DNA from: Candidatus Woesearchaeota archaeon | GTDB taxonomy: Archaea; Nanobdellota; Nanobdellia; Woesearchaeales; GW2011-AR9 | NCBI GenBank assembly: GCA_945861715.1 | Contig: CAMAVK010000002.1 | Coordinates: 260,440-324,439, forward strand | Length of the DNA: 64,000 nt | Direction of reading: 5' to 3' | Shown: in pieces, positions 10,097 to 36,178 of the stretch | Numbering within the stretch: the first letter of the stretch is position 1 | Layout of the letters: every line of letters starts with the position of its first letter | Program-made: the position numbers and the translations under genes | Notes under the pieces: model-generated | The model's database searches: none | What the model was told of the DNA's origin: nothing | Seen by the model: only the letters and a program-made list of their open reading frames with translations

Positions 10097-10197
10097 TTTT
10101 TTTGATGCGAAAAGTTGGTTTTTCTTTGTTAAGGGTTTAAATAGGTTTTGTTTTGGTGTTTTTTGCACGTGAAAATGGATGTTGTTAAAAAGTAATG

Positions 10198-10206
10198 TTT
10201 ATAAAG
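10198..10206 (+). promoter_or_regulatory. TATA box of the first pilin-like/effector cassette
   Basis: TTTATAAAG lies 22-30 bp upstream of ATG 10228. It falls inside an in-frame upstream extension (ATG 10195), which shows that the extension is not translated from this promoter. Confidence 0.7.
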
Positions 10207-10227
10207 GGAAATGAGCTTATTTTAGTT

Positions 10228-11055
10228 ATGTACCAACGAGGTCAGGTGACGGTGTTTGTAGTTATAGGTCTATTAGTTCTAGGAGTCTTTGTTGGAGTGT
10301 ATTTTTTGGTTTCTTCAGGTGTGACTTCATCCGTTGAGGGTGAGACGGGTGGGAGTGATGTTTCTTCATCTAAAGATTCAGTTGTGAAGTTTGTTGAAAA
10401 ATGCATTAATGAGCAATTAATTCTCGCTCTTGATGCTACCTCTCGTCATGGAGGTACATTATTTCATGTTGATGGTGATTCCGTTCTTCTTTCTGATAAT
10501 TTTGTGAAATATGCTTATTCTTCAACAATGAAAAATGTGGATAAGGTGATGTTTGAGGAATCTATTGCATTATATGTGGATATGTCTTTGCCTTCTTGTG
10601 TTGGTAATTTTTCTTCTTTTTCTTCTACATCGGTTGGAGTTGTCTCCCTTGGTGTTAATAGTAAACATGACATGGCCTTTTTGCAAACTCAAGGTTTTTT
10701 GCCATCAGATTTTAAAAGCCAAAGTAAAGTACAAATTAGTCCCAACTCAGTTCGAGTTGATACTGTTTTTCCTCTTGAGATTAAGCAGGGAGATGATGTT
10801 TCTAGAATAGAGTCTTTTACTACCAGTGTTCAGTCGCCATTAGGGTTAGGTATTGAACAAGCAAATGAAGTTGTTTCTTCGCTATCTCAGTCGAAAAAAT
10901 TGGATTTAGCGGTACTCGCTCAAAATAAGGGTTATACTCGTTTGATGTCGATTGGAAATGAAAAGTATATTCTGAGTTTTTATTTTGAGGATAATTCTGT
11001 TCCTTCATATATGTTGTTTGCAATTGATGGTTCTTCATGGGGTGATTCTTCATGA
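10228..11055 (+). CDS. Pilin-like membrane protein with GQVTVF N-terminus, partner of the giant protein
   Basis: This 275-aa protein starts MYQRGQVTVFVVIG, followed by a single hydrophobic helix (about residues 9-30), then an extracellular domain of about 245 residues. The RGQVTVF start resembles archaeal class III (type IV pilin-like) signal sequences of the form [KR]GQ-(I/V)S but lacks the usual Glu at +5. Two Cys residues (KCINEQ and PSCVGN) could form a disulphide. The start is set by the TATA box at 10198. Its stop codon overlaps the giant gene's ATG (ATGA), so the two are translationally coupled. An equivalent gene (25410) precedes the second large exported protein. No catalytic motif is visible; a role as assembly or anchoring partner is inferred. 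Confidence 0.75.
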   Translation: MYQRGQVTVFVVIGLLVLGVFVGVYFLVSSGVTSSVEGETGGSDVSSSKDSVVKFVEKCINEQLILALDATSRHGGTLFHVDGDSVLLSDNFVKYAYSSTMKNVDKVMFEESIALYVDMSLPSCVGNFSSFSSTSVGVVSLGVNSKHDMAFLQTQGFLPSDFKSQSKVQISPNSVRVDTVFPLEIKQGDDVSRIESFTTSVQSPLGLGIEQANEVVSSLSQSKKLDLAVLAQNKGYTRLMSIGNEKYILSFYFEDNSVPSYMLFAIDGSSWGDSS

Positions 11056-14000
11056 AGTTAAGGGGGGGGGGATATGGAATTATTTTGGTTCTACTTATTC
11101 TGTTCTCTTTTGCCTTTGTTAGTTTTGGTGATGTGGGAACGGGTGCTGTTGATAATCCAAATGCAAATGCCGGATCTGATTCATTTGGTAATGAGGTGTT
11201 TAATACACCAACTAATCAGTGGACAGCACAAGACGTGTTTAAAGCATTTAGTGATCCAAATATTGATCGATCGAAATTATTTCAAAATTTAGTTCAGCGT
11301 CCGGATTTGATTAAGGAGAATGCCGATGCACTTGTCCAATTTATGGATGATGATCCGGGTATGTATATTGATCCAAATTTTCGTCAAGTAGCAGATACTG
11401 TATTTCAAGATAGTACTCAGGGAACTAAGCAATTAGCAAAACGCGCCAATATGGCAAAAAAGGCTTTTTCTCAGTCTGTTAAGCGTCAAACAAATAAGAA
11501 TGTAAACGTTGAGAAAACTGAGGTTCAATCATATGACCCTGTTAAAGAGCAAGTTGTCGCGGCAAATAAAAAAGTATCATTAACCCAATTTAAACAAGAT
11601 GATACGGTGGAATATTCAGAGCAGGTTGTTACAATCAAAGAAGCAACTGGAAATGAGATTTCTATAGGTGGTACTGGTGAGGCGTCCATTGATAAAGTTG
11701 AGACAACTGTTGAAGGTGCACCTAGTGAGTATGAGGTTCATGAAGGTAAGAGTTGTGCTGATACTGAATTATCTGATGAAGAGCGGTCATTAGGCTGTAG
11801 TCAAGGTTCTATGCATACGTTTCAATTTGAGCAAAGGGTGGGTGGAATTGGTAGTGGTTCTGGTGATTCTGTCGATGTAGATTTGTCGCCTGGTGCGATT
11901 AAGGTTAAAGGAAAGGTTAGGGGAAGTACAACGCTTGCTGATGGTACTGATATTTCGTATAATTCTCGTTCTGGATCGGTAACGGTTGAAAGTTCTGGGG
12001 ATGTGAAAGCTGATGATGCTACTATAAGGGTTGTTCGTAAGGAAGGAGAATCTGAGCGGATGCTTCATCTTGATGGGCGATTTGAAACTAAAGGAAATGA
12101 CGTATTGCTAGAAAGTTATGATGGTAAAGAATCTAAAGTAAGTATTGTTGAAGAAGGAAGTGAAAAGGCGTTTTCGGTTTCATCTCAGGGAGGGAAAGTA
12201 GCATTTTATGATAATAGTTTACCAACTGACTCAGTATTTGGGCGAAAAAGTGGTGGAGTGGATTCATTTTCTGATTCCGAACTTACAGGTCGAGTTTATA
12301 GGCAGGAATATGCTGGTTCGACAATTATTGCTACTCGGGGTATTGCAGAGTCCCATGTATCACATGTGGATTCAATGGGTATTCCATTTGGTACCTCGCT
12401 TGATCTTCCGTCTGTAACCGGTAAGGGCTCTGAATTTAAAAGTGATGTTCGGGTAGAAGCAGGTCGGGTGGAGTATGATATTTCTGGCCGTGGTGTTGTT
12501 GAGGATAGTTCCAAGGTCATTGAAACGAAACAAAAAGGTGTACATATTAGTCAGGCAAGGTCATCTACTCTTGATGTACTCAAAACAGAATGTAGTGGGT
12601 GTGGAGTTGGGGATTCTCTTCTTACAGTCTCTACAAAAACACTTGCCTCTGAAACAGAGATTGGTTTTATTCCCGCCATTGGTGGAGATAGGGGGATCAC
12701 CGCCGGTGTTGTAGGCGGTTCTGTTACAGTTGATTATGTAATGGGTAGTGATTCAAAAATACATCCGCAAGTTGATTTTGATGATATTGCTCAAGCACAG
12801 GAGAATAATGTTATTACGCCCACAATTGTTTGTTATGGGGGAGATACTTGTGGTGGAGTTATTGATGGTCAAATCGTATATGAGACATCTCAAAATGGTG
12901 TGCTGCAAGCAGCTGCTGTGACTACGAATCCGGTGCAAGGCTTGGGAAGAGAGTATCTTGTGGTAGAGGATGATACAACTGAAAAGGCCTATACACTGTT
13001 TGAAGATTTTATACAACGCGGCGGGGTTTTAGATTCTCCAGTAAGTGATCCTCAAGTAATTGGGTTGGTTGCGAAGATATCTGGTATTGATTTGAATGAG
13101 TATCAAGGAAATGAAAATTATAAATTGCATTTGCAGAAGTCTATTTCACTTTCTTCTGTTCAAGTTCCTGGCCTACAAAATTCTCTTATCGATAATGGTA
13201 TAGTGGTTGATGCTCAGGGTGCGTGTCTTAGTGTTGAGTGTTCTGTAATAGTTGCTGAGTTGGATACAAGTTCTGATCAATATAGAGATCTTGTTGCGCT
13301 TCGAGCTAGTAGTGCTCGTGTGCGTTTGGAGATGATAGCAGCTGAGATGGCATTACGTGAAGCAAATGGTAAAGATACAAGTGATTTGAAACAGGTGTAT
13401 GATCATGAAGAAGCACTTACTTTGTCAGATCAAATTGAAAGTCGAAAGCTTGGCATTGAGCGCTTGCAACAGTATGCTTATACTCCTGAAGAAGAAATAG
13501 TGCTTTCTGAAGCCGAAGAAATCGGTACACTGCAAAAAAAGGCGGCTCAGGATAGAGCTATTGCTCAAGCCGAGATTAGTGATTATGAAGCACGTTATCA
13601 AAAGATGGAGAAGTCAGCACGTTTAAGTGCGGAACTTAGGATGGGTGCTAATTGGGCTAAAATTAGTGAGGATGAGAGAAAACTTGCAACGTTGCGGGTG
13701 TTGAGTGATGACAATAGTTGGCGAGAAGGTGTGGAGAATCCAGAAGATTTGCGAAATATGATCCATTTTGCAAAGAATCGTTATAACCATGCCAATGAAC
13801 AATTAGGAAAATTACAGATTAGGCGGGATGCTCTTGCTTTACAAACACAAGATGAGTTGTTAAAAGCAGAAATGTTGCGAATATCTGGTGATGCTGCTGG
13901 TGCTACAAAAGTTTATCAAAAATTACAATCTGATTTAGAGGCCGATGAGGGTTTAGAAATTTCTTTAGGTGGTGTTACAAAGTTAGATGCTGTTTCAAAG

Positions 14001-17000
14001 CAAAAGTTTGCTGCTGCTATGGGATTGAGTATGGTTGAGGCAGGATATTTGGATCAAGCTGCTCAGGTGGTTGAGGGTCTTGATGTTACTATTCCAGAAG
14101 TTAGAAATCTTAAGTTAAAGGTTCGGGATGTTGAGATAGATTCAGATTACGTTACAGAGTTGAAATTATCTGCTTCTCGAGATCGGATGGATGCTGTTGA
14201 TAATGCAAATACTCTTGAAGGTCAAATTGCTATGGGTCATTGGAAGGAAGCCGAGGCCATGGCCAATAAAGAAGGGTTATCGGTTGGTGAAATTATTGTT
14301 CGCGAGGGATGGGCAGGTGCTCAACGCCTTAGTTTTACGTTATTAGCGGATTGGATTGGTGAAAATGAAAATGAAAGAGCTCATAATGGAAAATTAGCTA
14401 ATGCTGCTCAAATGGAAGGATGGACTTCTGAGTGGGAAGGCTGTCGAAAAAACATTGATTGTAACATTCGTGAAACTAGTTTATACAAAGAATATGCACC
14501 TTATCGGTGTAAGTTAGATAAGGTTGATTGTTTTGAAGGTAAGGCGCAAGAAGTGGCTATCAAATCAAAGCAACAAACAAGTTTTCAGACGGCTGATGAT
14601 TTAAAACAACTATCAAATACCTTAAATTATGGTTCAGGAGTTAATGCCAAGAAAGAGGATAGAGAAAAAGCTCTTGCTATTTATAAAAAAACTCTCGATG
14701 AGGGTGCTGGTGATTATATTGCTCGAGTGGGGTTAACGGGTGTTGAAGTTGCAAGTGTTGCATTAGCTCCTATGTTTGGTGAAAAGTTTATTGCTCAAGG
14801 TGTTGAGGAGATTCCATTTGCAATTAAAAATTGGGTGGGTGCGGGTAAGGTAGGACTTGAAGATATTGCTGCAACTCGTCGTTTGATGAAGGCTGAAAAA
14901 GCAGTGCGGGAAACTGAACGACTTATTGATGTGGCAGCCGATAGTTCTATTCGAGCACGCCAGCTTGAGAATGCAGTTAATGCGCGAGTTGAGTTATCTA
15001 GAGCAGAAATAGCGTTTGATCAATTAAAAGAAGTACGTAGAGTGTCTGAACGTGCAGAAGTCGATGCAGCAGTGGAACATGCGCTTCGAAGTGCTGAAAG
15101 AGTTAATTTTTGCGAAGGGGGTGTATGTAGAACACTTAAAGATGATATTAGACAGAAAACTCAAGGTTTGGTGAAGGATCCCGCCGTTTTACGTAAGCAA
15201 GCAACGGAGGCAGAAACAGCTGGTCGTGTTGATTTGGCAGAGGGATTACGTAGGAAAGCAGAGTTTTACGAGGTAGAAAAAGTAAACGCAAGGGCATTAG
15301 AGGCTCAAGCAAAAGCGATTGCTGAGGCGTCAAAGGCAATTCGAGTGGCTCAGGGGTTAAGTGAAAAACCTAGTCTTCGGGAACGTGTTGTTTCTGTTTT
15401 TTCAGTACCAAGCCCAGACTCGCAGGTTGTGACGGTGGTTAAACAATCTGATGAAGTACGTAGCAAAGCTCAAGATATGTTAGGTTTAGCAACTGATGTT
15501 GAAAGTATTGACTCTTCTTTAGCAACTAAGTTAAGAGAAGAAGCGAGTCAACTTGCTATTCAAGCTGTACGTATTGAACAAAAGGCCGGTGTTACTCCAA
15601 CTGATTTATCAAGGAATATGGATTCCATTACTGCACAATCTACGTTGGCTCGTTCTATTAATTTAAATGAAGCAGCAATTGCCAATTTAGAACAGTTCAG
15701 TTCTGATATGCGTACGAAATTGCAATCTTCTGGGTCGGTTAAAGAAGTTACTCGAGAAGTATCGGATAATTTGGTGAAACAAGGATTTAATTCTTTAGGT
15801 GATGTGGATGCGGAAGTTGCGCTGTTGCGCAGTCATTCAGCTGAATTAGGAGTAGAACTTGAAAGAATAAATTTGAATGTGGATAAAAATATTGAGGTAC
15901 AATCGGCTAGCTCACTTGCTACCTCGGATGCGTTATCATCGCGTGCGGTGGGTTCATTTAGTGATTGTCCTTTGAGAGTTGTGAGTGCTGGTGTTGCATT
16001 ATCTGGTACTGCAATCTCAGTTGGCATGGCTGATGCTTTGCCCGTGCCTTGTAATGATCCACCTGTAAGTGTCATACTTCGACCTAGGAATTTAATGTCT
16101 GCAGTAGCTATTGAAGGAAATAGTGCCGCTGTTTTAGTGCCTCGATTACCCGAAGAAAAATTTCCTATTGTTAGGCCACGTGGTGCTGAGCGTGTTTCGG
16201 GAGAAAGAACGAATGTTGTTGCTTTTAAACAACCTATTGATAAGGTTGATAATGGGATTACTCCAAGGGTTGAGGGGTTAGCTCCAGAAGGGTTTGATTC
16301 GAGTGTTGCTGATAGTTTGGATTCTCGTTTAGATAATATTGATGGTCCTCCAATTCGTTCATCGGATAGTTTTCCTGATGAGGTTACGGGTTCTGATTTT
16401 TCTCTTGTTGAACCGATTACTCACAAAGAAGTATTAGCTGCTCGGGATCGTAATTTTAGACCACTTCAATTAAGTGCTGAGGGTGGTTCTATTGAACAAT
16501 CTACTGCTCATTTTGTTTTAAGAGATAATCAGCTTGTTCCTATCACATCTGAAGCTGAACTTGCAGGGTTGAAAGATGGTCAACTTTTATTTAGTGCATT
16601 GTTAGATTATGATGGGCATGTTTTTGGTTATTCTCCTGCGATTATCCGGGATGGAACATTAGTTCGAGGCCCGGAAGCGGCTAGTGCTATTTCATCAGGG
16701 TCTGGTGTTGTTGAGAATAAAATTGTTCTTCAAAGATTTAGCGAGTTAAATTCAGAAGTTTCTAGTCCTATGACCGATACTGAATCTGTTTTGGCTGGTG
16801 TTGCACCGTGGAAAGATGAGTTTGCGATCCAACCAACATTAGGTTTGGCTGATTTGGATGCAGCAAGGGTTCGTGTGTTTGATCCAATTGGTGCTCAGGT
16901 GGATGTGCTTGGAGCGGCTGGCGATAAGGCTGCGTTTGCAAATGCATATACTCCTATTAATACAAGGTTACGTTTAATTGATTCTGATATTCAAAAGACG

Positions 17001-20000
17001 GCTGAGGAAATTGCGCGTCTCAAAGAAGGTGGTAATGTTGATGTTGCTCGAGTTCTTGCACTTGAAAATAAAGTTCGTGAGTTGAAGGCACAGAAAATGA
17101 GTGATATCAATGCGTTGTATGAACTTGATTTTAAAGGAATGGTTAAGCAAGGAATTATTCCTGAAGGAGTAGCTACTGAGTTAGATAAGTTGCGAGTAAC
17201 TGCGGCTCGTGATGTCATTGATGATTTATTGTTGCATGATCCAGTTGTAGTTAATAAAATTGTAAATTCACAGAAGTTTAGAGAATTGAAATTGTTGAAT
17301 CCTAAGATGTCTGATGATGCACTGCTTGTAAGGTTTGCGAAGGATAATATTGAAATTAAAAAAATAGGGTCTGATGGACTGCCTAGCGATGCAGATATAA
17401 ATTTAATTGGTCCTGATTCGGTATTGACAGATGTATTTCCTACGTTGCGTGATAGATTTAGATCGATTGTTAAGACAGAAGGTCCGCAATTAGAGTTATT
17501 ACCTTTGTCTAAGAATGGTCTTGATCCTACAAAGGTTGCTTCAAATAGACTTGATGGGGCTTCTCTTCTTAATCCTGAGGTTATGCCAAACGCTCGAGAG
17601 TGGTTGTATCGACTCAATGGTCAGAAGGCAGAGATATCATCGGAAGATGCACTTTCACAATTATTGTATCATATGACAGGGTTTGAAAAAACTGAAGATT
17701 TACGAACAAAATCTAAGTATTATGTCAGAGCTATGTCTGAAAAGTTTCGTGTGAATGCGGAGCTGGATGCATTGCGAAATACATTAACTTCCCAAGCATT
17801 TGATCGTGCGGCTAAAAATGGTGTTATTGGTGTTCCACCTGAAGTAGCTGATTATTCTATTGATTTAGCTGTTGCTGAAGTTGCAAGAGCTAAAAATATT
17901 ATTGGGGAAGATGAGTTTACCACATTTAAAAAGGCTCATCAAATCTATAAAGGGGATGGTGCTGCAGCGCTTGAAGGGTTGAATAAAGAAGCATTTGTTA
18001 CCCAGATGTCTTCTGATATGAATCGATTTATTGATTCTCCAGATATGTTATCTACTTGGCGTAGCTTGAATGCTCCACTTGACACAAACTTGGAAAGTAT
18101 TGTATCTGATGCTCGGCGTGCGCTTTCTGATGGGTCTGATACTGGAAGTCGTGCGTTTGTTGCACGATATGATCAACATACTCGTGATTATTTGATTTCG
18201 AAATTTGAGCAAGCGGGCGTGACTCCTGATGGTGCTCGTAGATTGGCTGATCATAGTTTTGAAGAATTATTAGAAGCTGAGTCGGATATGGATTTATTTT
18301 TGCTTGGGAATGATCTTGGGGCTGTTGATGGTGATAGAATCATGGCTGTTCTTGCTGATGCTAATGAAGATTTCAAGGCGTTGAATTTTCGAGTTCAAAA
18401 AATCAAGTATGAGAAAGCAAGTGGGAAGAGTTTGGATGAATTAGTTACTGCTGTTCCAACGCCTGTACGTGATACGGTTGAAATTCCTGCTGTGAAGTTC
18501 CCCGTGCGAGGGGTAGTTGATGGTGGCGCTGTTTCTACTGCTGTTCGAAATGAGCAGATTGTTGTTGATTTGAAAGCGCGAAGTAAGGATTTAGGAATAG
18601 AAGTGTCAATTGGTTCTCAGGGAGAAGTTGTTGTGAGAGTTGCACCTGGTTCTCAAGGTATACGCCCTGAAGTTCGAAGTGCTCTTGATGAACTTTCATT
18701 AAATGGGGAGAATGTACAGGTGAGTGGAGATGTCGGTCCAGTTGCGATGCGAGGTACGCCGGTTGCTGATCTTAGTAGTGGCGGCAGAGTTGTTCCTGTA
18801 TCAGGAGTTTCTGTAACACCTGGTGTGCGGGATGTTCGAAATTTAGAGTTTAGTCGTTTTGGCGGAAGGAATACCATTGATGGTGAGAAGGCACAAGAGG
18901 TGTTGAATTTTGTTCACGATATTCCTGCTTCACAGCAAGCGAAATTGCATGTGAGTCGCGATAAGAAATTGCTGATTATCGAGGTGAATAATCCCGGGAC
19001 GTGGGAGAGTAAATTATCAGTAGGAGCTAGACAAACTTTGCGGGAAGCAGGTGTGACGGAGATTCAATTCAAGAGTCCGGGTGATGGTGTTCTTCGTGAA
19101 ATGAAATCTGCTACGGGTGCTAAGAGTTTAGATAAGAATGTTCCGTTACAGGGTCTATTTGGCCAATTTGGTTTAAGTGGTACAGAAAAGAGATCTTTAA
19201 TTGATTCTTCCCTTGCACCTGGGCTTGAGGCGAAAGTGAATGGCTTTGATTCTGTTGCCCAAGTGAGTGGTGATGGATCCAAGGCTAGAATAGGTGTTGT
19301 GGATCCAGTTGCGCTGCGTGGAGCACCTATAGCTGAGAGTGGATCTCCGAGGGTGTTACCGGTAGTCGGTGAGAAGACTATTGTAAAATCTGTTACTCCA
19401 CAAAGTCGAGTGGATCATAATATTCAGAGTTTTAGTGCGGATGATTTTTGGACTGTTCATTCTGATACTGTAAATTCTGTGACTGGTTCGCGTTATGTTC
19501 AAGTTGACGTTGATAGCCATGGTCAATTGTTGCCTGTTGGTCAGGATGGGTTTAAGGTGACATTACGAAATGATTTGAAGACCGGTCAGTTTGTTGTAGT
19601 ATCTGATGCGTCGTCACGGGGTTTGAGTGCTGAAGCGAGAAAGGTACTGGACGATACTGTTGTTGGTCTTACTGAGAGTGGGGTTGGGAAGGTTGAAGTT
19701 CCAGTTGTGGTGCCAGTTGCAGTTCCTCCGGTTGCACTTCGTGGTGTTCCTGTAAATTCACCTGGGCGAGTAACACAACCAGGTATTCCATCCACTGTTC
19801 GGAACGTAGATGCTCTTGGTGATTCATCTTCTCAAATACGTACTATTGTTCTGACAGGTACATCAGAGCGAAATTTAGAGGATGCAATCAGTACTAAATT
19901 GTATCAACGTCAGGTACAGAGTCAATCAAATCAGAATTTTGTTGGTTCCTATGTTAAGGTCAAAGTTGATGAATTAGGTAATGTGGTTGATAATGGAAAA

Positions 20001-23000
20001 TATAGTGTCAGTCTTATTGATGATATTGTCCCTGGTCAGTTTAGGGTTGCTGTTGATGATGGAATGCCTCAATCTGTTCGAGGTAGGTTGGATGAGTCGC
20101 TTGCTATGGTGAATAGGAATAGAGTGGCGGTTTCTGAAGTTGATGCCGTTGTTACAGTTAAAAAAAGTCCTCCTCCGTTGCCTGAGAATGCTAAGATACA
20201 TGAAGTAACAGATATTGATGTTGTGTCATCTGAGTCATTATTACCGGCTGTTGCTAGTCCTGAACAGCTTGCAGTAACAGCACCACCTGCTGCTAGTTAT
20301 GATGATTTGTCAGGAGTTCAAGGTTTTGATTTACCCATTGTGTCTCAGAGCGAAGCGGAAAATATTGAGAAGTATGTTCGTTTCATGAGTTCACGTGGTA
20401 TTACAATACATGTAGGTGAAGTGGATGGTGTTCCTACCATTGAATATTGGGTTCCTAATACTATTGCGAGTGAGGATGGATTGCAATCTGCGCTTGGGGT
20501 TGTTCGAAAAAATCATGATGATCAGTTTGCTCATAAGTTTAATGCTGTTGTTCTCGAGCAGAAGGGGAATGGAGTTCCTGAGGATACACAAATATTAAAC
20601 GGTGTAGAGTTAGTTAAGGATGGGTCATCAGCGGTTGAAGCATTGGGTTTGAAAACAGTGTCTGATCGAGCGGTATTAGAGAGTGCACTTGCACAGGCGA
20701 GGGATGGCATTGTAACTGGTGTTAAAGGTGCTGATGCTGCTGCTGAGAAGTTTGCTGCTAAGTTGAGCCAGTTGAATCGCTATGAAGCCTATCAGCAGAA
20801 AGGTGCTTTTGGTAAGTGGTGGGAGAGAAGGTGGAGTGGAGAACCAGTTAAACCGTCAGTTGTTGCCGAAGGAGAGTTGGAGAAGATATTATTGGGGGAT
20901 GCCAAGGTTGCTGTGGCATCGGTAAGTGAGATTGGTGTTGATGCTGGTAAGATTGACCATAGTGTTGTTGCTGGGGTAAAAGGTGATTTTAGTTCTGAGG
21001 GTGGTCTTGTAACACCTGAAGGATTGATTGATGCTAATACATTAAATATTCCTGTCTCTTCTGAGCGACATGTTGCCGATGTGGTTCCAGGTATAGACCC
21101 ACTACCATCAAGTATAGTGGTTCAGGCACCTGTTGCTGCTTCGATAAGTCCTTCATGTTCAGTTGGATTTGTTGGTAATGCTGTTGGTCGTCAGTGTGGA
21201 ATTAATATGAAATTGCCTGATGGGTTAGATGTTGAGAGTGGATCTCTATGTACATTTAATCTAGTTGATGGGACATCTCCTACCTTTATTTATTCTGCAG
21301 TAACCGACGAAGGCATTATCATTCGTGATGCTAATGGTAAGTTATTTCCAATCGATTCAAATAGTATTTTGTCTGTTGATGTGCTGGATATGGAAAAGGC
21401 TCGTACGCCGGCATATGGTGAGAAGGTTCATGTTGTTCATTCGGATGGTACTGTTTCAGAGGGATATTTCTTGGATGAGGATGCTGCTGGGATCACTATT
21501 AATATAATCCCCCCTAAGCAAGGTGGTGCTCTTTCTATGCAACGTATTGCTAATAAAGATGTTTCAACGGTTCGATTTGGTAATGAATTAAAAACAGGGC
21601 CACATGAAGTTGGTGCAAATGTTGGTCCGTCTGAATCAATTGCTGGTGGTGAATCAATTTCCAGTGGGACGTCAGGTCAATCTCAAGTGGATGTTACGCT
21701 AGAGCCAGAAGCTACAGCAAACATTGCAGTGGATGGAAGTGTTGGTGGGTCTTTACATGTCGGTGGAAAAGATTTTAGTTCAACTGTGGTAATGGATTTC
21801 TCTGCTAACCCTGATTTAGCTCCGGCGAAAGTTCTTGGTGGTATGAATAAGGATACACCTATTCGGTTTACCGTTGATGGTAGGGTTATCGAAGGTAAAT
21901 TTGGTGGGGTTAGTGGAGATAAATTATTGTATACTAATGAGAGGGGTCAAGCTGCTGTTGCACGTGTGAGTAGAATTGATGCGGGGTCAGTTACTGAACT
22001 TTCTATTTATGAATCAAACTTAGGATTTGCTAAAAATAGTCCGGTTTCCGTTTCAACACCAGAGGGAGTTATATCTGGACGTTATTTATCTGAGGATGAT
22101 ATTTTTGTTTATATTAAAGGGTCGGATAATCAATTACATTCTGTTCCTAAAGTTGATATTGCCTCAGGTAGGTATTCTATTTCTGGTTCTGTTGAAGCTG
22201 AGACGGTGGTCTTAGATTTGTCGTTAAGTACCAATCGCGCTAAGGTAGCAGGCCTACCTAGTAGAACGGTTGACTCGGCAGTTTCTTCGTCTGTTATATT
22301 TACAATGCCTTCTGGAACACAAGGAAGGTTTCCCGTTGTGTTTAGAATGGAAGATAGAGACTTTGCAGTTGCAAACAATTTGATTCGTGAAAATCCGAAT
22401 CTTGGTTCATTGGAGCGTGGTGCGAGTTATAATTATGTGGTGTTGGATGATGGGACGGTTGTTGTTGGTAAGGTAAGTGATGATTTAGAATTTGGTGTGA
22501 AACATCTTCATTTAGCTAATGGTCGGCCGGTTACGGTAGCAGGTGAGTTGAAGGTTGGAATGGATGGGAAACTCACTTATAATTTGAATAGTAATACATT
22601 TATGAATCCTCTTATTCGAGAAGGAGGATCAACTGAGGCTGGAGCTCGCAAGGCATTTGAAGCTATTGTGAAAGATCAGATTGGTGTTATACCCTCGTTT
22701 GAAACGTCTACGCTCCTTCCTCATGGGCCACCTTCTACTATTCAATTAGATGAGTTGTGTGCTGGTCATTTCCTTAATTCGAATGTTGGGTTATGTGGGC
22801 TTTTGGGTATTGGTCAAAGTAAGGCAAAGAAAGTGTCTAGTATTGATGATTTAGTAACAAATAATCGTGATATTTTCGTTGTTCAATCTCAAGGCCATAT
22901 TCAAGCGGCTGATATGACCAAAGGAGTTCGCTTAACTGATGGTTCAGTTCAGCAGATTGTATACACCTTAGCAGATCGAGAATTTGCACGTTCTCGTGGG

Positions 23001-25379
23001 AAATTGTATGAGAAAGTGTTACCGTCATCTCTTCCACGCGGAAAATCATATACTTATGTTGTTTTAGAAGATGGAACGATGGTGTTTGGTGAAGTGGAAA
23101 ATGGGTTGGAGTTTGGGGTCAAGCATTTCCATTTAGCAAATGGCAGAAAGGTAAAGGCAGCGGGTGAATTACAAATCGCTGCTGATGGCTCATATGAAGC
23201 AAATTTACTTTCGGGTACATTTTCGAAACCACTGGTTGATTTTTATGGCATTCCTGAGCGCGATTTAGAAGCACGTGTACTTTCTGTATTTGAGTCTGAC
23301 GCGCGGATGGGACAAGGAACGATTGTGAAAAAAGATTTGCTGCCTTCACGTGCACCATCGCTTGAGGAGTTTAAATCTGTTTGTTCATCTTCTGTATTTG
23401 AGTTGAATCGAGGTGTATGTGGTGGGGTGATGCCTCAAACACCATTAATTACAAAGATGGAGATATCCGTGCCGATTGATGGAGCTGTGCAGGTGGATTT
23501 GTTTGATTCTCTTTCAATACGTGCTCGTGCTGCCGGTAATGCAGAGCTAGCAGACGAGTATTTACGAATGAAGATAATTGCGCAAGATAAAATGTCCGAA
23601 GGATTCTTTGCTCGGACCAAGAGGAAGTTGTTTGGTGGTGAAGATGTACCTACAACTCTTGTTATTGATGATCCTGCTTTGTTTAAGACTGCTCAGGACT
23701 CTGTTAGTAAGCGAGGTATTACGTGGGTTACTAATGAGCCTCCACGAATAATGCAAAAGAAAGGAGATATAGCAGTTGGGTTTAAGGATTCAAGAGGAGT
23801 GGTTGAGATATTTGTGCCTGCTCATTTAGACTGGGCAAAAGTACGTGCTGACATAAATGCTTTGTTAAAAGAAAATCCAACGATTTCCAGGGAGGAGTTT
23901 GCTTCGAAAGTTCGTGCGATGGGATGTACTACTCCTGGATTACCAGTTGGAGGGAAGGCATATGTTGGGAAAGCAGATGAGTCTTGTGCGATCATTGGGG
24001 TTACATCTACTGATTCAGTTACGAAAGTAGTAGATTCTGCCAATGGTGCTTCTGAACAGGGAATTATGAGAATTGGTGTAGATCGAATTGGTGTAGATCG
24101 AATTGGAATTAATCCTGAGGTGGTCGATTTGAACACCAAACAATTAATTGAACGTCCTCCTGAGGTTGGTGTTTCTTCTACTATTAAAGTTAATGGGGCG
24201 GGTCTGGTAACTCCTTCTGGTACACATGAGGTTGAAGTAGTTGCGGGGGCGGATGGAAAGATTATTTCTATTAGTTCTGCTGGTTCTGTTGAGAGAAATG
24301 GTGTTAATGCGGTTACGGTTCATTTGCCTAATTCTGCATCGGATTCAGATCGTATTTTGGCGTTTACTGCGGTTGCGGCTATTGTTGGTGGTGGTGTTGT
24401 GTTGTCTTCGGATGAGATGGTTGATGAGATTCGTGAGCAGGTTCCGTGTGTGGGTGATATTTCGCAAGGGTGTGAGGTACTTGATATTGATGTGATAGAA
24501 CCTGATACCTCTTCTTCTTCTATGCTTGGAGTTAATGAGGAGATTGTGAGTATTCCTGTGAAAGTTTCTACTGGTACTCCTAATTTAAGACAACCGGTGA
24601 GCTTTTCTGTTTCTGGTAGCAAAGTTGCAAACACATTGAGTTCTATTACTAGTTCAGTTGCTGCAAAAAGTAATTTTGCTGGTAAATCTTTTGTGACTCA
24701 GTTGAGTGGTAATGAGAAGCGTGATGTTGAGTTTTATGTTCCGATGGGAGTCGATTTTGCGAAACCAGTTAATATTGTGTATTTGTTCCATGGTCTTGGT
24801 GATGTTGAGCGAACTGCAAAAGTAACGCTTCCGAATGGGATTTCGGCTGTTGAGTCTTCGGCTAATACTATTTTAGTATATCCAGTTAGTGCGGGTAAAC
24901 GAGGTACGGGTGGAGGAGACGGTGAGTGGATGAGTGGTAAGGGTGGACCGAATTCCATTTCGGCTTTACACACAGATACATTGAATGTTCTTCGCGAAAT
25001 GAGTCCAGTTCCATTTACAGAAGGGAAGGTGAATATTGTGTGTCATAGTGCTGGTGGTCAAGCATGTCGTAATATGGTTAGTAGTGGTGGTTTAAAAAGT
25101 ATTGATTCAGTTAGTGGCAAGTCTACTGCTGATATTCCAGTTCATTACTATATGGCTGATTCATGCTATGGGAATTGGTGTGGTGCGACTGTTGAGGGTT
25201 CTCGTTCCATTGATACTGTTGCAGTTCATTATAATTCGGTGGGGGTTACTGGAACAAAGAATGGTGGGGACGCGGTTAGTTCGGATGGTAAACGAGTTTT
25301 TGTTGAAGGTACGAATGAGGGTCATTTAGATTTTATTTTGGATACTTCTGAAGTTATCCTTGCGCAGAGTGAGAGTTAG
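11052..25379 (+). CDS. Giant 4775-aa exported multidomain protein with C-terminal alpha/beta-hydrolase
   Basis: This is one unbroken frame of 14.3 kb. A signal peptide or anchor occupies about residues 8-26. A helical N-domain and beta-rich repeats (about 40-700) follow, then long coiled-coil/TPR-like helices (about 730-1620). Three VA(L/M)RG(T/A/V)P modules lie near 2563, 2752 and 2893. About four SH3-like beta modules lie at 3395-3720. Two copies of a domain containing EFGVKH(L/F)HLANGR and AGEL lie near 3812 and 4019. The C-terminal domain (about 4540-4775) has FHGLGD, the nucleophile box CHSAGGQ (Ser4666), a candidate Asp4703 and GHLDF (His4758), as in esterase/depolymerase-type alpha/beta-hydrolases. 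A hydrophobic segment lies at about 4436-4452. The start overlaps the upstream stop (ATGA). Polymorphic-toxin-like or adhesin function is inferred; the substrate is unknown. Confidence 0.8.
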   Translation: MKLRGGGYGIILVLLILFSFAFVSFGDVGTGAVDNPNANAGSDSFGNEVFNTPTNQWTAQDVFKAFSDPNIDRSKLFQNLVQRPDLIKENADALVQFMDDDPGMYIDPNFRQVADTVFQDSTQGTKQLAKRANMAKKAFSQSVKRQTNKNVNVEKTEVQSYDPVKEQVVAANKKVSLTQFKQDDTVEYSEQVVTIKEATGNEISIGGTGEASIDKVETTVEGAPSEYEVHEGKSCADTELSDEERSLGCSQGSMHTFQFEQRVGGIGSGSGDSVDVDLSPGAIKVKGKVRGSTTLADGTDISYNSRSGSVTVESSGDVKADDATIRVVRKEGESERMLHLDGRFETKGNDVLLESYDGKESKVSIVEEGSEKAFSVSSQGGKVAFYDNSLPTDSVFGRKSGGVDSFSDSELTGRVYRQEYAGSTIIATRGIAESHVSHVDSMGIPFGTSLDLPSVTGKGSEFKSDVRVEAGRVEYDISGRGVVEDSSKVIETKQKGVHISQARSSTLDVLKTECSGCGVGDSLLTVSTKTLASETEIGFIPAIGGDRGITAGVVGGSVTVDYVMGSDSKIHPQVDFDDIAQAQENNVITPTIVCYGGDTCGGVIDGQIVYETSQNGVLQAAAVTTNPVQGLGREYLVVEDDTTEKAYTLFEDFIQRGGVLDSPVSDPQVIGLVAKISGIDLNEYQGNENYKLHLQKSISLSSVQVPGLQNSLIDNGIVVDAQGACLSVECSVIVAELDTSSDQYRDLVALRASSARVRLEMIAAEMALREANGKDTSDLKQVYDHEEALTLSDQIESRKLGIERLQQYAYTPEEEIVLSEAEEIGTLQKKAAQDRAIAQAEISDYEARYQKMEKSARLSAELRMGANWAKISEDERKLATLRVLSDDNSWREGVENPEDLRNMIHFAKNRYNHANEQLGKLQIRRDALALQTQDELLKAEMLRISGDAAGATKVYQKLQSDLEADEGLEISLGGVTKLDAVSKQKFAAAMGLSMVEAGYLDQAAQVVEGLDVTIPEVRNLKLKVRDVEIDSDYVTELKLSASRDRMDAVDNANTLEGQIAMGHWKEAEAMANKEGLSVGEIIVREGWAGAQRLSFTLLADWIGENENERAHNGKLANAAQMEGWTSEWEGCRKNIDCNIRETSLYKEYAPYRCKLDKVDCFEGKAQEVAIKSKQQTSFQTADDLKQLSNTLNYGSGVNAKKEDREKALAIYKKTLDEGAGDYIARVGLTGVEVASVALAPMFGEKFIAQGVEEIPFAIKNWVGAGKVGLEDIAATRRLMKAEKAVRETERLIDVAADSSIRARQLENAVNARVELSRAEIAFDQLKEVRRVSERAEVDAAVEHALRSAERVNFCEGGVCRTLKDDIRQKTQGLVKDPAVLRKQATEAETAGRVDLAEGLRRKAEFYEVEKVNARALEAQAKAIAEASKAIRVAQGLSEKPSLRERVVSVFSVPSPDSQVVTVVKQSDEVRSKAQDMLGLATDVESIDSSLATKLREEASQLAIQAVRIEQKAGVTPTDLSRNMDSITAQSTLARSINLNEAAIANLEQFSSDMRTKLQSSGSVKEVTREVSDNLVKQGFNSLGDVDAEVALLRSHSAELGVELERINLNVDKNIEVQSASSLATSDALSSRAVGSFSDCPLRVVSAGVALSGTAISVGMADALPVPCNDPPVSVILRPRNLMSAVAIEGNSAAVLVPRLPEEKFPIVRPRGAERVSGERTNVVAFKQPIDKVDNGITPRVEGLAPEGFDSSVADSLDSRLDNIDGPPIRSSDSFPDEVTGSDFSLVEPITHKEVLAARDRNFRPLQLSAEGGSIEQSTAHFVLRDNQLVPITSEAELAGLKDGQLLFSALLDYDGHVFGYSPAIIRDGTLVRGPEAASAISSGSGVVENKIVLQRFSELNSEVSSPMTDTESVLAGVAPWKDEFAIQPTLGLADLDAARVRVFDPIGAQVDVLGAAGDKAAFANAYTPINTRLRLIDSDIQKTAEEIARLKEGGNVDVARVLALENKVRELKAQKMSDINALYELDFKGMVKQGIIPEGVATELDKLRVTAARDVIDDLLLHDPVVVNKIVNSQKFRELKLLNPKMSDDALLVRFAKDNIEIKKIGSDGLPSDADINLIGPDSVLTDVFPTLRDRFRSIVKTEGPQLELLPLSKNGLDPTKVASNRLDGASLLNPEVMPNAREWLYRLNGQKAEISSEDALSQLLYHMTGFEKTEDLRTKSKYYVRAMSEKFRVNAELDALRNTLTSQAFDRAAKNGVIGVPPEVADYSIDLAVAEVARAKNIIGEDEFTTFKKAHQIYKGDGAAALEGLNKEAFVTQMSSDMNRFIDSPDMLSTWRSLNAPLDTNLESIVSDARRALSDGSDTGSRAFVARYDQHTRDYLISKFEQAGVTPDGARRLADHSFEELLEAESDMDLFLLGNDLGAVDGDRIMAVLADANEDFKALNFRVQKIKYEKASGKSLDELVTAVPTPVRDTVEIPAVKFPVRGVVDGGAVSTAVRNEQIVVDLKARSKDLGIEVSIGSQGEVVVRVAPGSQGIRPEVRSALDELSLNGENVQVSGDVGPVAMRGTPVADLSSGGRVVPVSGVSVTPGVRDVRNLEFSRFGGRNTIDGEKAQEVLNFVHDIPASQQAKLHVSRDKKLLIIEVNNPGTWESKLSVGARQTLREAGVTEIQFKSPGDGVLREMKSATGAKSLDKNVPLQGLFGQFGLSGTEKRSLIDSSLAPGLEAKVNGFDSVAQVSGDGSKARIGVVDPVALRGAPIAESGSPRVLPVVGEKTIVKSVTPQSRVDHNIQSFSADDFWTVHSDTVNSVTGSRYVQVDVDSHGQLLPVGQDGFKVTLRNDLKTGQFVVVSDASSRGLSAEARKVLDDTVVGLTESGVGKVEVPVVVPVAVPPVALRGVPVNSPGRVTQPGIPSTVRNVDALGDSSSQIRTIVLTGTSERNLEDAISTKLYQRQVQSQSNQNFVGSYVKVKVDELGNVVDNGKYSVSLIDDIVPGQFRVAVDDGMPQSVRGRLDESLAMVNRNRVAVSEVDAVVTVKKSPPPLPENAKIHEVTDIDVVSSESLLPAVASPEQLAVTAPPAASYDDLSGVQGFDLPIVSQSEAENIEKYVRFMSSRGITIHVGEVDGVPTIEYWVPNTIASEDGLQSALGVVRKNHDDQFAHKFNAVVLEQKGNGVPEDTQILNGVELVKDGSSAVEALGLKTVSDRAVLESALAQARDGIVTGVKGADAAAEKFAAKLSQLNRYEAYQQKGAFGKWWERRWSGEPVKPSVVAEGELEKILLGDAKVAVASVSEIGVDAGKIDHSVVAGVKGDFSSEGGLVTPEGLIDANTLNIPVSSERHVADVVPGIDPLPSSIVVQAPVAASISPSCSVGFVGNAVGRQCGINMKLPDGLDVESGSLCTFNLVDGTSPTFIYSAVTDEGIIIRDANGKLFPIDSNSILSVDVLDMEKARTPAYGEKVHVVHSDGTVSEGYFLDEDAAGITINIIPPKQGGALSMQRIANKDVSTVRFGNELKTGPHEVGANVGPSESIAGGESISSGTSGQSQVDVTLEPEATANIAVDGSVGGSLHVGGKDFSSTVVMDFSANPDLAPAKVLGGMNKDTPIRFTVDGRVIEGKFGGVSGDKLLYTNERGQAAVARVSRIDAGSVTELSIYESNLGFAKNSPVSVSTPEGVISGRYLSEDDIFVYIKGSDNQLHSVPKVDIASGRYSISGSVEAETVVLDLSLSTNRAKVAGLPSRTVDSAVSSSVIFTMPSGTQGRFPVVFRMEDRDFAVANNLIRENPNLGSLERGASYNYVVLDDGTVVVGKVSDDLEFGVKHLHLANGRPVTVAGELKVGMDGKLTYNLNSNTFMNPLIREGGSTEAGARKAFEAIVKDQIGVIPSFETSTLLPHGPPSTIQLDELCAGHFLNSNVGLCGLLGIGQSKAKKVSSIDDLVTNNRDIFVVQSQGHIQAADMTKGVRLTDGSVQQIVYTLADREFARSRGKLYEKVLPSSLPRGKSYTYVVLEDGTMVFGEVENGLEFGVKHFHLANGRKVKAAGELQIAADGSYEANLLSGTFSKPLVDFYGIPERDLEARVLSVFESDARMGQGTIVKKDLLPSRAPSLEEFKSVCSSSVFELNRGVCGGVMPQTPLITKMEISVPIDGAVQVDLFDSLSIRARAAGNAELADEYLRMKIIAQDKMSEGFFARTKRKLFGGEDVPTTLVIDDPALFKTAQDSVSKRGITWVTNEPPRIMQKKGDIAVGFKDSRGVVEIFVPAHLDWAKVRADINALLKENPTISREEFASKVRAMGCTTPGLPVGGKAYVGKADESCAIIGVTSTDSVTKVVDSANGASEQGIMRIGVDRIGVDRIGINPEVVDLNTKQLIERPPEVGVSSTIKVNGAGLVTPSGTHEVEVVAGADGKIISISSAGSVERNGVNAVTVHLPNSASDSDRILAFTAVAAIVGGGVVLSSDEMVDEIREQVPCVGDISQGCEVLDIDVIEPDTSSSSMLGVNEEIVSIPVKVSTGTPNLRQPVSFSVSGSKVANTLSSITSSVAAKSNFAGKSFVTQLSGNEKRDVEFYVPMGVDFAKPVNIVYLFHGLGDVERTAKVTLPNGISAVESSANTILVYPVSAGKRGTGGGDGEWMSGKGGPNSISALHTDTLNVLREMSPVPFTEGKVNIVCHSAGGQACRNMVSSGGLKSIDSVSGKSTADIPVHYYMADSCYGNWCGATVEGSRSIDTVAVHYNSVGVTGTKNGGDAVSSDGKRVFVEGTNEGHLDFILDTSEVILAQSES
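11062..11071 (+). repeat. 10-G homopolymer in codons 4-7 of the giant gene
   Basis: Ten consecutive G residues encode the end of Arg4 and three glycines just before the signal helix. In this AT-rich sequence such a tract is unusual. A change of length by slippage would shift the frame of the whole 4775-codon gene, as in bacterial contingency loci. An assembly or base-call error is also possible. Confidence 0.8.
24069..24108 (+). repeat. 15-bp direct repeats inside the giant gene
   Basis: The unit GAATTGGTGTAGATC occurs in tandem twice, followed by a partial third copy. It encodes RIGVDRIGVDRIGI. The repeat is in frame (5 codons), so copy-number change would not disrupt translation. Confidence 0.7.
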
Positions 25380-25390: not shown

Positions 25391-25409
25391 TCAAAATGTA
25401 CGTTTGGTT

Positions 25410-26798
25410 ATGTTGGAAAAGGGTGTTATGTTTCAAAAAGGGCAGGTGACGGTGTTTATTATCATAGGTATCTGTATTCTTGCGTTATTTGGTGGTATTT
25501 ACTTTTTAACGGATTTATTTTCTCATTATATAGACTCGTCGGTTGATGTTGAGTCATTTAACAATGTACAATTGTTTATTGATTCTTGTCTTGCGACGAG
25601 CTCTGAACATGGTGTTCGTGAGGTATTGGCACAGGGGGGATATGGTGATGTTCTTGAAGCTGGTTCGGTTCTTAAGTTTCCTCAGGGTGGCGATGATGTT
25701 TTAGTTCTCCCTGCTTATTTTGATGCTGGATTTGTTCGCGTTCCAACTTTAAGTGAGATTCAACATAATGCCGAAGAGAGGGTTGCACGGGATTTTTTAC
25801 GTTGTGTGGATTCTTTTGAGACGCTTAAGATGCAAGGGTATACCATTGAAGCGTCTGACCCTTTGGTACGATTGCAATTTGAGTCGAGTGCAACAAAAGT
25901 CTTTTTGCAATATGTTCTTGTTGTTACACTAGGTAGTTCAACCAAAGAGTTAAATAATTTTGAATATACTATGTCTTTTGCGTTTCCACAAACATATAAT
26001 GCAGTTCGGCAGTTTTTAGTTAATCAGAGTATGGTTCCTTCTGAGTTTTTGGTTACTGGGTTATCAGATGCAGTTTTGAACACAAGTGGTTCTTTTGGTT
26101 TTTCTCAAACAGGCGATCAAGGTCGTGATGTGTTGGTGCAGTTTAGAACCGCGGTTGATAATCCTATTGTATATCAGTTTGGATTAACATATGATTTTGA
26201 TGAGGATGAGTTGGTAGAGGAGAAGATTAAACCTATTTTAAGTGATAATAGTGGTTTGATCGATCGATCTGTGATTGAAATGGATTTTCTTCCCGAGTGG
26301 AATATTTCAAAGAATGGTGTGTTTCATTATACCCCAACGGTTCGAGGAGAAGGTTTGAGTTATTCTTTGGATACAAAAGCAATAGAGATTGATGCTGTTA
26401 CTGGGGAAATGACGGCGTATTCATCGAAGTTGCCTAATGATGAGTATGAGTTCATTCTTACGGTTGAAGATAAGTTTCATTCCATTGCGTCTCAGCCGTT
26501 GTATTTGAATGTTCGAGTGGTAAATGAGACGGTTCCGGCTATTGTTCCTATCTCTCGACAGATAGTTGAGCGTGGGACGAGGTTACAAGTTCCAGTTGTA
26601 TTACATCGTCAAGTTGCGGATATTTTTGAAGAGGCGGTATACAGCGTTGATGCGCCTCCCATTTTTGTAATAGATAGTGCGACTGGGGTATTGACTGCTC
26701 GCGCAATTGGTGAGGATGCGGGGAATTATTCTGTGCGAGTTAATGCGTATACTTCTAGCTGGAATACGTGGTATCGTTTTGAGGTGGAGTTCAAATGA
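25410..26798 (+). CDS. Pilin-like membrane protein with Ig/cadherin-like domains, partner of the caspase-like protein
   Basis: This 462-aa protein begins MLEKGVMFQKGQVTVFIIIG, then one transmembrane helix (about residues 13-36) and a long exported part. KGQVTVF is nearly identical to the start of the 10228 protein. Residues about 280-462 contain two Ig/cadherin-like (He_PIG type) beta-sandwich units: EIDAVTGEMTA followed by YEFILTVED, and VIDSATGVLTA followed by YSVRVNAY. I chose ATG 25410 over the in-frame TTG 25404 because it sits about 25 bp after a TATA box. The stop overlaps the next gene's start (ATGA), repeating the architecture at 10228/11052. The paralogous N-terminus suggests both act as membrane tethers or pseudopilins for the downstream partner (inference). 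Confidence 0.75.
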   Translation: MLEKGVMFQKGQVTVFIIIGICILALFGGIYFLTDLFSHYIDSSVDVESFNNVQLFIDSCLATSSEHGVREVLAQGGYGDVLEAGSVLKFPQGGDDVLVLPAYFDAGFVRVPTLSEIQHNAEERVARDFLRCVDSFETLKMQGYTIEASDPLVRLQFESSATKVFLQYVLVVTLGSSTKELNNFEYTMSFAFPQTYNAVRQFLVNQSMVPSEFLVTGLSDAVLNTSGSFGFSQTGDQGRDVLVQFRTAVDNPIVYQFGLTYDFDEDELVEEKIKPILSDNSGLIDRSVIEMDFLPEWNISKNGVFHYTPTVRGEGLSYSLDTKAIEIDAVTGEMTAYSSKLPNDEYEFILTVEDKFHSIASQPLYLNVRVVNETVPAIVPISRQIVERGTRLQVPVVLHRQVADIFEEAVYSVDAPPIFVIDSATGVLTARAIGEDAGNYSVRVNAYTSSWNTWYRFEVEFK

Positions 26799-28930
26799 AA
26801 AAGTTCCATCATATATTTTTCTTTGTAGCTTTGTTGTTTGTGGGTAGTGTACTATTCAGTAGTATGGTTATTGCAAATGGTGAAGAGGTTGCTTCACAAA
26901 TTGAGCAAGGTCAGGTGAGTGATTATAGTCAAATTCCAACGCAAGATATGGTAGAAGCTTTGCGAATGCATCCGGAATTGGCTTCAAAGTTGCCTGATGC
27001 TGATTTTATTCGTGCACTTAATTCTGATCCGTCCCTTATGGAGTCGACAGTGTTTATGACTGATGTTGGAATTCCCAATGGAGTGTTTTTTGAGTTGAAT
27101 GAACGTGTTAAGAAGGATCCTACCATTTTGAATCAAAATGTGGATGTCAAACGGAAATGGTTTTCGGTATATGGTATTGCGGATGATGATAAGAGTGGTG
27201 GTGCGGTCATTGAGCAGTATGATGGTACGCGTGTGCGAACGGGGGGTACTAATGGGATGACTTTTGATGTTGCGTCATTTCCTGGTGCGAAAGTTTTGCG
27301 TGATGGTAGCCTTGTATTTCAAGATAAGACTTTTTCTGGATGTAAGTCTTTGATTACGAGTAAAGAAGATGGTCATGATGTTATCTATATGGAATCCGGT
27401 GAGGTTGTCGTACCTGAAAGTAAAGGGTTAGGGAAGGCAAGTTATTCTTTGGTTGTGAGTGAGACTGGTACTGCAGTTGTGAAGCATAAGGATAATGGAA
27501 GAGATGTAACACAGGTTAATTATATTGGTGGCGTAACTTTGGAAGGGTCATCAATTGGGTTATTGGTTACTCCTCTTGGTAAATCATTTCGGCGTGATGT
27601 TGATGGCGGTGATGTGGGTTTTTCTTCATCAGAGATATTTGGACGTATTCTTGAGCCCAAGAAAGCAAAATCAGGTGAGTTTATCATGCTTGGGTCTGGA
27701 AAGATTGTCGGTGATGATGGTGGTAATGTTGTTGAGATTACGGGCAGTAGTAAGAATAGTAAGACCTATTATACTGAGGAACCTTCACGAAGTGCGGGAA
27801 CTTTTTGTAAAAAAGATGGAGCTTGTGTTGTGAATACCCCTGTTCCAGGTGATGTTCTTGTGAGGTCAAGGTTGGCTATTAGCGGCGTTAAGGCGGGGAA
27901 TTCTGTGCGAGTTCGAAGTTCTTCCTATTATTTTAATGCTGAGTTTGAGAATATTGAGGGTGATGCATATTTTGATTCGTATCCTTATGATTTAGGTACG
28001 GGTACTTGGGGTGCTTCAAAATCATCCATTCATGTTCATCAAGGTGATGTTGGTGTTCAAGGAGTATTACGCGATTCTTTTGCGGGAAGAGTTGATGTCG
28101 TAGTTCCCAAGGATTCGTCGTGTTCTGGGTCGAATTGTCCAACTTTATTGAAACATTGGTCCTCAGATGGGTTTCAAAAGGATTTGACCAGGCAGTATTT
28201 TAGTACGCCAAATGATCATTTTGTAACGTGTGAGCGAGGAGTGAATTGTTTAAGTTTACTTGCGCAAAATTTTGGGAAATTGGTTGGACCTCCTTCGAAG
28301 CCAATTTCGAAGGTGATTATTGTTGGTGGGGATAATGCGGGAGTTGCGCAAAGTATACAACAAGGAGATTGTCGTGTTGAGAGGTGTGCAATTATCCATA
28401 GTCGGGATGTTCCTCCCGAAATTGATTCAACGGTGACCTCGATGGTAATAACTGGTCATCATGATGAAGCAGCTGATAGTATTTGGCATGATGCACCAAA
28501 TATGGGGGCCGGTCATAATGCGCGAGATAGGATTTATTTTGGTAGAGTACCTGCCGGATCGAATTTTGATTCATTGCCTAATGCTCCTAATGTGAAGACG
28601 GTTAGTTTTAGTGCGTGTAATTCAGTTTTACCTCCATCTTATGAGTACCCGGGGATGCAAAGTTTATTGAGCAGATATCCAAAGGTTGTGATTTTTCAAG
28701 GGTGGACCGGCAAAGCAAGTTTGCATGAGTCTCTTAGTTCTACGATTACTTCAGCAAGTCAAATCCCTTCTCGAGTTGCAGTTAATAGAAATTGGGATTA
28801 CGGTCATCGAGCATTTTTAGTTAAAAATGAAGATGGGAAATGGATTTATTGGGATGGTATGGGTGAGAAACAGGAGTATACTGCACATCCTAAGGTTGCA
28901 TCAACGGGGCCGGGTATGGGGCCGGGTTAG
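26795..28930 (+). CDS. Exported protein with C-terminal caspase/CHAT-like cysteine peptidase domain
   Basis: This 711-aa protein has a signal peptide (about residues 1-27) ending near IANGEE. A helical N-domain (about 35-110) holds repeated motifs such as LRMHPELASKL, and beta-rich repeats run from about 115 to 430. The C-terminal domain (about 500-700) carries MVITGHHDE (His555) and VSFSACNS (Cys608), 53 residues apart. This is the order and spacing of the His-Gly and Ala-Cys catalytic elements of caspase/CHAT-fold (clan CD) peptidases. VVIFQGWTG and a final GPGMGPG follow. Start and stop overlap couples it to the upstream pilin-like gene. The peptidase assignment is from motifs only; a structural relative lacking activity cannot be excluded. 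A target or processing role for the giant neighbour is speculative. Confidence 0.7.
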   Translation: MKKFHHIFFFVALLFVGSVLFSSMVIANGEEVASQIEQGQVSDYSQIPTQDMVEALRMHPELASKLPDADFIRALNSDPSLMESTVFMTDVGIPNGVFFELNERVKKDPTILNQNVDVKRKWFSVYGIADDDKSGGAVIEQYDGTRVRTGGTNGMTFDVASFPGAKVLRDGSLVFQDKTFSGCKSLITSKEDGHDVIYMESGEVVVPESKGLGKASYSLVVSETGTAVVKHKDNGRDVTQVNYIGGVTLEGSSIGLLVTPLGKSFRRDVDGGDVGFSSSEIFGRILEPKKAKSGEFIMLGSGKIVGDDGGNVVEITGSSKNSKTYYTEEPSRSAGTFCKKDGACVVNTPVPGDVLVRSRLAISGVKAGNSVRVRSSSYYFNAEFENIEGDAYFDSYPYDLGTGTWGASKSSIHVHQGDVGVQGVLRDSFAGRVDVVVPKDSSCSGSNCPTLLKHWSSDGFQKDLTRQYFSTPNDHFVTCERGVNCLSLLAQNFGKLVGPPSKPISKVIIVGGDNAGVAQSIQQGDCRVERCAIIHSRDVPPEIDSTVTSMVITGHHDEAADSIWHDAPNMGAGHNARDRIYFGRVPAGSNFDSLPNAPNVKTVSFSACNSVLPPSYEYPGMQSLLSRYPKVVIFQGWTGKASLHESLSSTITSASQIPSRVAVNRNWDYGHRAFLVKNEDGKWIYWDGMGEKQEYTAHPKVASTGPGMGPG

Positions 28931-36060: not shown

Positions 36061-36178
36061 TTGTGTAGTTTAGTTGCAATCGTTTTTTGTTGTATGTTTT
36101 GCAAATTATTATTGGAACTAATTATTCATTTTTGTTGGTTGTAATCGGGTTGATTGATAGGTGGGGGATTATGCTTTT

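Follow-up and report, generated by a model that had tools for sequence, protein, structure and literature searches.

What does an archaeon with a reduced genome gain from a protein of 4,775 residues? The question is raised by a stretch of 64,000 nucleotides from Candidatus Woesearchaeota archaeon (the window; forward-strand positions 260,440 to 324,439 of contig CAMAVK010000002.1, assembly GCA_945861715.1), in which one open frame on the plus strand, at 11052-25379, begins with ATG and stays open for 4,775 codons, as a first-pass annotation of the sequence had reported. The same annotation put the giant at about 1.5% or more of a small DPANN proteome in length terms; the gene takes up 14.3 kb of a genome of 1,295,831 bases, which is about 1.1%. 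Our favoured answer, to which we give a probability of roughly 55%, is that the giant is an exported, surface-presented effector with several modules, organised like the polymorphic toxins. The argument starts from a domain that occurs twice towards its rear:

11052..25379, plus strand: giant protein (P0001), predicted to be exported, 4,775 residues; open frame from ATG, with homologous giants in relatives.
22335..22799, plus strand: copy 1 of the duplicated domain, residues 3762-3916, with His3818, SNTF and a closing Cys pair at 3903/3915.
22956..23423, plus strand: copy 2 of the duplicated domain, residues 3969-4124, with His4025, SGTF and a closing Cys pair at 4111/4123; structure predicted.

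The repeated motifs by which the two copies had been noticed are in place for LANGR (residues 3821 and 4028, a spacing of exactly 207) and AGEL (3830 and 4037); SGTF, described for both copies, is found in copy 2 only (4054), copy 1 having SNTF. Residues 3762-3839 and 3969-4046 are 54% identical (expect value, E, 5e-27), the mark of a true duplication. The domain is rare in DPANN archaea: of the 378 genomes of the class, profile A3 matched two, and a single-sequence search also matched G019. One His (3818 and 4025 in the giant) is retained in nearly all members of a twelve-sequence alignment.

In a genome-wide scan, the duplicated domain was matched in a CdiA-like protein of Pseudomonas grimontii that carries, by Pfam, TPS, haemagglutinin repeats (Fil_haemagg_2) and PT-VENN. 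The homologue lies within the last ~110 residues of that protein, at the extreme C-terminus (compared pairwise, the two are 35% identical over 86 residues, with E 1e-10). When this tail was used as query, it retrieved a Janthinobacterium protein with an RHS core, in which the match stops two codons before the protein end and the next coding sequence overlaps by 4 nucleotides, and an LXG protein of Listeria innocua, in which the match is at the C-terminal end and a small coding sequence comes next. Loci of this kind have their toxin at the C-terminal tip and the immunity gene in the small open reading frame behind it. A tblastn search of plasmids with the duplicated domain itself gave no direct match, and the Pseudomonas homologue is the sole bridge to the Rhs and LXG proteins. 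By these alignments the duplicated domain is homologous to C-terminal toxin tips. The likeness to polymorphic-toxin C-termini proposed in the first-pass annotation is borne out: the domain stands at the C-termini of CdiA-like, Rhs and LXG proteins. In the bacterial proteins it is the terminal domain, whereas in the giant it is internal and duplicated. A rear module related to bacterial toxin warheads suggests a weapon or a host-attack system.

Structural comparison, which had been proposed as a check on this likeness, gave no convincing fold match for the duplicated domain (Foldseek best E 0.08; VIA-align best Z 6.8), and a profile search of the PDB with it had no match. The predicted structure of copy 2 has a mean predicted local distance difference test score (pLDDT) of 68; a first prediction, covering residues 3750-4775, was mostly of low confidence (mean pLDDT 50). 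The VIA-align candidate at Z 6.8, phosphohistidine phosphatase, was discarded as too low, short of the level from which a match reflects more than a general arrangement shared by many folds.

A second line of evidence is the way in which giants of related genomes resemble one another. The parts of the present protein that enter into this comparison, together with a further hydrophobic segment, are:

11052..11138, plus strand: hydrophobic N-terminal signal or anchor segment, residues 1-29, from a hydropathy scan.
11142..13499, plus strand: conserved N-terminal scaffold, about residues 31-816, from profile A4.
15966..16052, plus strand: Cys-bracketed small-hydrophobic segment, residues 1639-1667, closing the N-terminal part.
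16371..18854, plus strand: module also present in the 7,646-residue giant of G015, here residues 1774-2601 (E 1e-47).
24348..24413, plus strand: hydrophobic segment, residues 4433-4454, a possible membrane segment from a hydropathy scan.

The pattern first appeared in two relatives, G035, whose giant has the duplicated domain, and G015, whose giant has the C-terminal hydrolase described below. Of the 49 genomes of the same GTDB-type family, 12 have a match to the scaffold of ~800 residues, which is followed by helical regions; the frames concerned run from 629 to 7,663 codons. A sample of the order gave nine matches among 287 genomes, three of them outside the family. Up to residue 1886 the G029 giant is 74.6% identical to that of G067, and beyond that point the two share one module (45%) and short stretches. 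The giants of G012 and G017 have in common a C-terminal module (59%) and elsewhere a short weak match only, and an internal module is shared at 52% between G017 and G067. On these comparisons the family has a fixed N-terminal scaffold with C-terminal modules exchanged between species. A conserved N-terminal region with exchanged C-terminal modules is one of the features of polymorphic toxins, and this is what the pairs G029/G067 and G012/G017 display.

Little is annotated in the modules themselves. Pfam had zero matches to the entire giant and weak, sub-threshold ones to its pieces; with NCBIfam added, the giant whole and in pieces still received no useful annotation, and weak matches to DUF848 and diol dehydratase were set aside as chance. 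By eye, the module at residues 1774-2601 holds a nucleotidyltransferase-like motif (SDADxNxI, about residues 2112-2118), a call that stays at the level of the motif, a PDB profile search of the region being without match. The relatives carry modules that resemble kinases, both by Pfam (Pkinase, E 0.0013) and in the PDB (E 0.0008 and 0.013), with G-loop, Lys, DxHxxN and D(A/V)G motifs, as well as a module like Tox-ART-HYD1, an ADP-ribosyltransferase (ART; E 0.09), and, in the G029 giant, two HExxH modules. None of these likenesses is strong by itself, but as a set they suggest enzymes with effector roles.

Module borders lie more often than expected by chance close to a short Cys-bracketed hairpin, which we defined, after examples had been seen, as a Cys, 10-30 small or hydrophobic Gly/Ala-rich residues and a second Cys. 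Eleven giants contain 23 such hairpins; shuffling the sequences gives an expectation of 0.37, and none of 500 shuffles yielded more than 3. Borders fall within 40 residues of a hairpin in 12 of 40 cases, compared with 3.5 for randomly placed hairpins (P 0.0025, a value that is indicative only, because the borders are interdependent and the hairpin was defined after seeing examples).

The giant ends in an enzyme:

24669..25376, plus strand: C-terminal alpha/beta hydrolase, a CE1-type esterase by profile and fold match, residues 4540-4775.

The putative catalytic residues named in the first-pass annotation, Ser4666, Asp4703 and His4758, are at those positions. Ser4666 and Asp4703 are invariant across six aligned relatives, where the HG, the HS.GG around the serine and the Asp four columns ahead of a Tyr do not vary; His4758 is kept in the closest relatives and falls within the last 59 residues, which are predicted at pLDDT <50. 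A profile of the six relatives matched ferulic acid esterase AmCE1 in the PDB (5cxu, E 4e-5), and the suggested Foldseek comparison with esterases bore out this assignment, feruloyl esterases ranking first (best 1jt2, E 4.7e-4). By profile and predicted fold the last ~235 residues are a CE1-type esterase, like the feruloyl and acetyl-xylan esterases of that family. Unlike those, it sits on an archaeal giant and its relatives are tied to peptidoglycan hydrolases. Within the archaeal family the same esterase is found on secreted proteins with M23, SLT, GDSL or M15-like parts. This points to attack on bacterial-type envelopes and agrees with published work on Woesearchaeota that degrade peptidoglycan (PMC9723730) and on bacteria-killing peptidoglycan hydrolases from archaea (PMC12352652).

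The genes around the giant are:

10195..11055, plus strand: pilin-like membrane protein of 286 residues with RGQVTVFVVIG, overlapping the start of the giant by 4 nucleotides.
25404..26798, plus strand: second pilin-like protein, 464 residues with KGQVTVFIIIG, related to the 286-residue protein (E 8e-9).
26795..28930, plus strand: small scaffold paralogue of 711 residues (scaffold match E 2.5e-70; itself a row of that profile).
29025..29882, minus strand: YkuD (L,D-transpeptidase) lipoprotein-like gene (Pfam E 6e-8).

A gene for a pilin-like membrane protein with KRGQ(V/I)T(V/I)F lies directly upstream of the giant in all ten loci with upstream sequence (10/10), and YkuD genes also adjoin the giants of G035 and G011. 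The C-terminus of the 711-residue paralogue has TGHH...SACN, kept in G035, G029 and G011, which by eye recalls clan CD (caspase-like) peptidases; a PDB profile search of this region was without match, and the call stays at motif level. Pfam finds ADP-ribosylglycohydrolase genes beside the giants of G010 (L057:2694-3635, E 3e-67) and G017 (L053:12665-13615, E 4e-72); self-protection or an effector role is possible for them.

On the favoured reading, the signal segment, the scaffold and the helical regions would carry a series of exchangeable modules, here the nucleotidyltransferase-like region, the two toxin-tip domain copies and the terminal CE1-type esterase, and the pilin-like protein from the upstream gene would probably anchor or present the giant. 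Once a host or prey cell is touched, its envelope would be opened by the esterase along with peptidoglycan hydrolases that are secreted separately, and modules would act on or in the target. Export, contact delivery, entry of modules into the target, toxicity and the service of hairpins as junctions or membrane-inserting elements are the parts of this scheme that we infer. More tentatively, we can see the family as an archaeal system for attacking or manipulating other cells, with effector cassettes strung between Cys-bracketed hydrophobic hairpins, a dedicated pilin-like presenter and DPANN archaea set against host or prey; such a system is undescribed as far as the open-access literature shows.

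Several observations weigh against an exported toxin-like effector. Its secretion route is indicated by the N-terminal hydrophobic segment and nothing else, the giant's own hairpin (1639-1667) is marginal and fails a stricter cut-off, and the kinase, ART and nucleotidyltransferase calls have weak scores or motifs as their basis. In the position of an immunity gene, directly after the giant, stands the second pilin-like gene, with no candidate cognate immunity gene; two bacterial immunity-position proteins had zero matches in the archaeon's own genome, an empty answer that says little. The His of the bacterial SGHY motif, present in all four bacterial sequences of the twelve-sequence alignment, is replaced by Thr or Ser in every giant copy. 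Finally, with the bacterial sequences added, the profile of the duplicated domain also finds proteins of ~270-350 codons in other DPANN, and Pfam recognises HEAT repeats in the two that were checked, L069 and L073 (HEAT_2 E 4e-9); these domain-bearing HEAT-repeat proteins are apparently cytosolic, with no sign of export, which means that the domain is not exclusive to toxins. Three of the proteins from other DPANN (L069, L070 and L073) have the domain of the bacterial toxin tips at their ends.

The last two of these points bear on an explanation that we consider unlikely but serious, and that is compatible with the other readings, namely that the duplicated domain serves in binding or regulation, is not toxic, and is put to another use by bacterial toxins, DPANN giants and HEAT-repeat proteins alike. 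The presence of the domain in HEAT-repeat proteins speaks for it, as does the SGHY His, which these proteins lack in common with the giants; it accords less well with a domain that forms the terminal segment of three unrelated toxin scaffolds, each with a small open reading frame at or just past its end.

Less probable again is a giant that attacks envelopes or adheres to cells and has no intracellular toxins, its scaffold binding a partner cell, the terminal esterase deacylating wall or matrix polysaccharide alongside peptidoglycan hydrolases, and the middle modules being structural or binding parts. The terminal CE1-type esterase, the secreted M23, SLT, GDSL and M15-like proteins that carry its relatives, and the YkuD genes near giants speak for it. 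In the archaeon's own genome, at C1:525728 (L028), a secreted protein with M23 peptidase and esterase is followed by one with GDSL and SLT, a peptidoglycan-degrading pair in an archaeon. Peptidoglycan-degrading, predatory-looking Woesearchaeota have been reported (PMC9723730), and the giant SPEARE proteins of Nanohaloarchaeota, mostly extracellular, have a proposed role in attachment and invasion (PMC6642349). What an envelope or adhesion protein leaves unexplained is the swapping of modules, the tip domain of CdiA, Rhs and LXG proteins, and the modules in relatives that look like kinases, an ART and metalloproteases. That the giant is a chance open reading frame or a misassembly, a thought invited by a draft genome in 8 contigs, is contradicted by the conserved family, the independent giant frames in other genera and the consistent operon order, and can be dismissed.

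The giant resembles SPEAREs in that both are giant DPANN proteins. SPEAREs have laminin-G, serine protease and restriction-enzyme-like domains and mostly a transmembrane segment near the C-terminus (PMC6642349); in the giant, whole or in pieces, Pfam recognised no laminin-G, serine protease or (type III) restriction-like domain. With the polymorphic toxins (CdiA of contact-dependent inhibition, CDI; Rhs; LXG) the family has several things in common: the N-terminal part is conserved while C-terminal modules are exchanged, a sequence motif occurs close to the junction, and one domain is homologous to their C-terminal ones. It differs from them in being archaeal and in having several modules per chain instead of one tip, a Cys-bracketed hairpin instead of VENN, a pilin-like gene partner and no immunity gene seen. 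Pfam found none of the known trafficking domains (TPS/ESPR, Rhs, LXG, PT-VENN) in the giant, whole or in pieces. Given the missing scaffolds and the lack of any visible immunity gene, the giant is best not classed with the CdiA, Rhs or LXG toxins.

Elsewhere in the window, at 418-6318 on the minus strand, lies a gene for a right-handed beta-helix (NosD-like) surface protein of 1,966 residues with a signal segment, and the G015 giant has a similar gene upstream of it. The gene at 36161-36895 on the plus strand encodes a sigma-70 factor of bacterial type (Pfam Sigma70_r4 E 5e-13, Sigma70_r2 E 2e-12) in a window with archaeal ribosomal and RNA polymerase genes; to our knowledge sigma factors are normally absent from Archaea. 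Sigma-70 matches occur in 16 of the 49 family genomes, the best at E 2e-18 and most of them weak. At 43766-44434 on the minus strand, two Fis-type helix-turn-helix domains form another bacterial-looking regulator in this archaeal window.

The dealings of DPANN archaea with their partner cells are little understood, and the giant family would provide specific proteins for testing. If the favoured reading is true, a fixed front with swapped effector-like modules, one of them common to bacterial CdiA, Rhs and LXG proteins, would tie archaea to the arms race of polymorphic toxins, and the family would show where long proteins repay their cost in reduced genomes.
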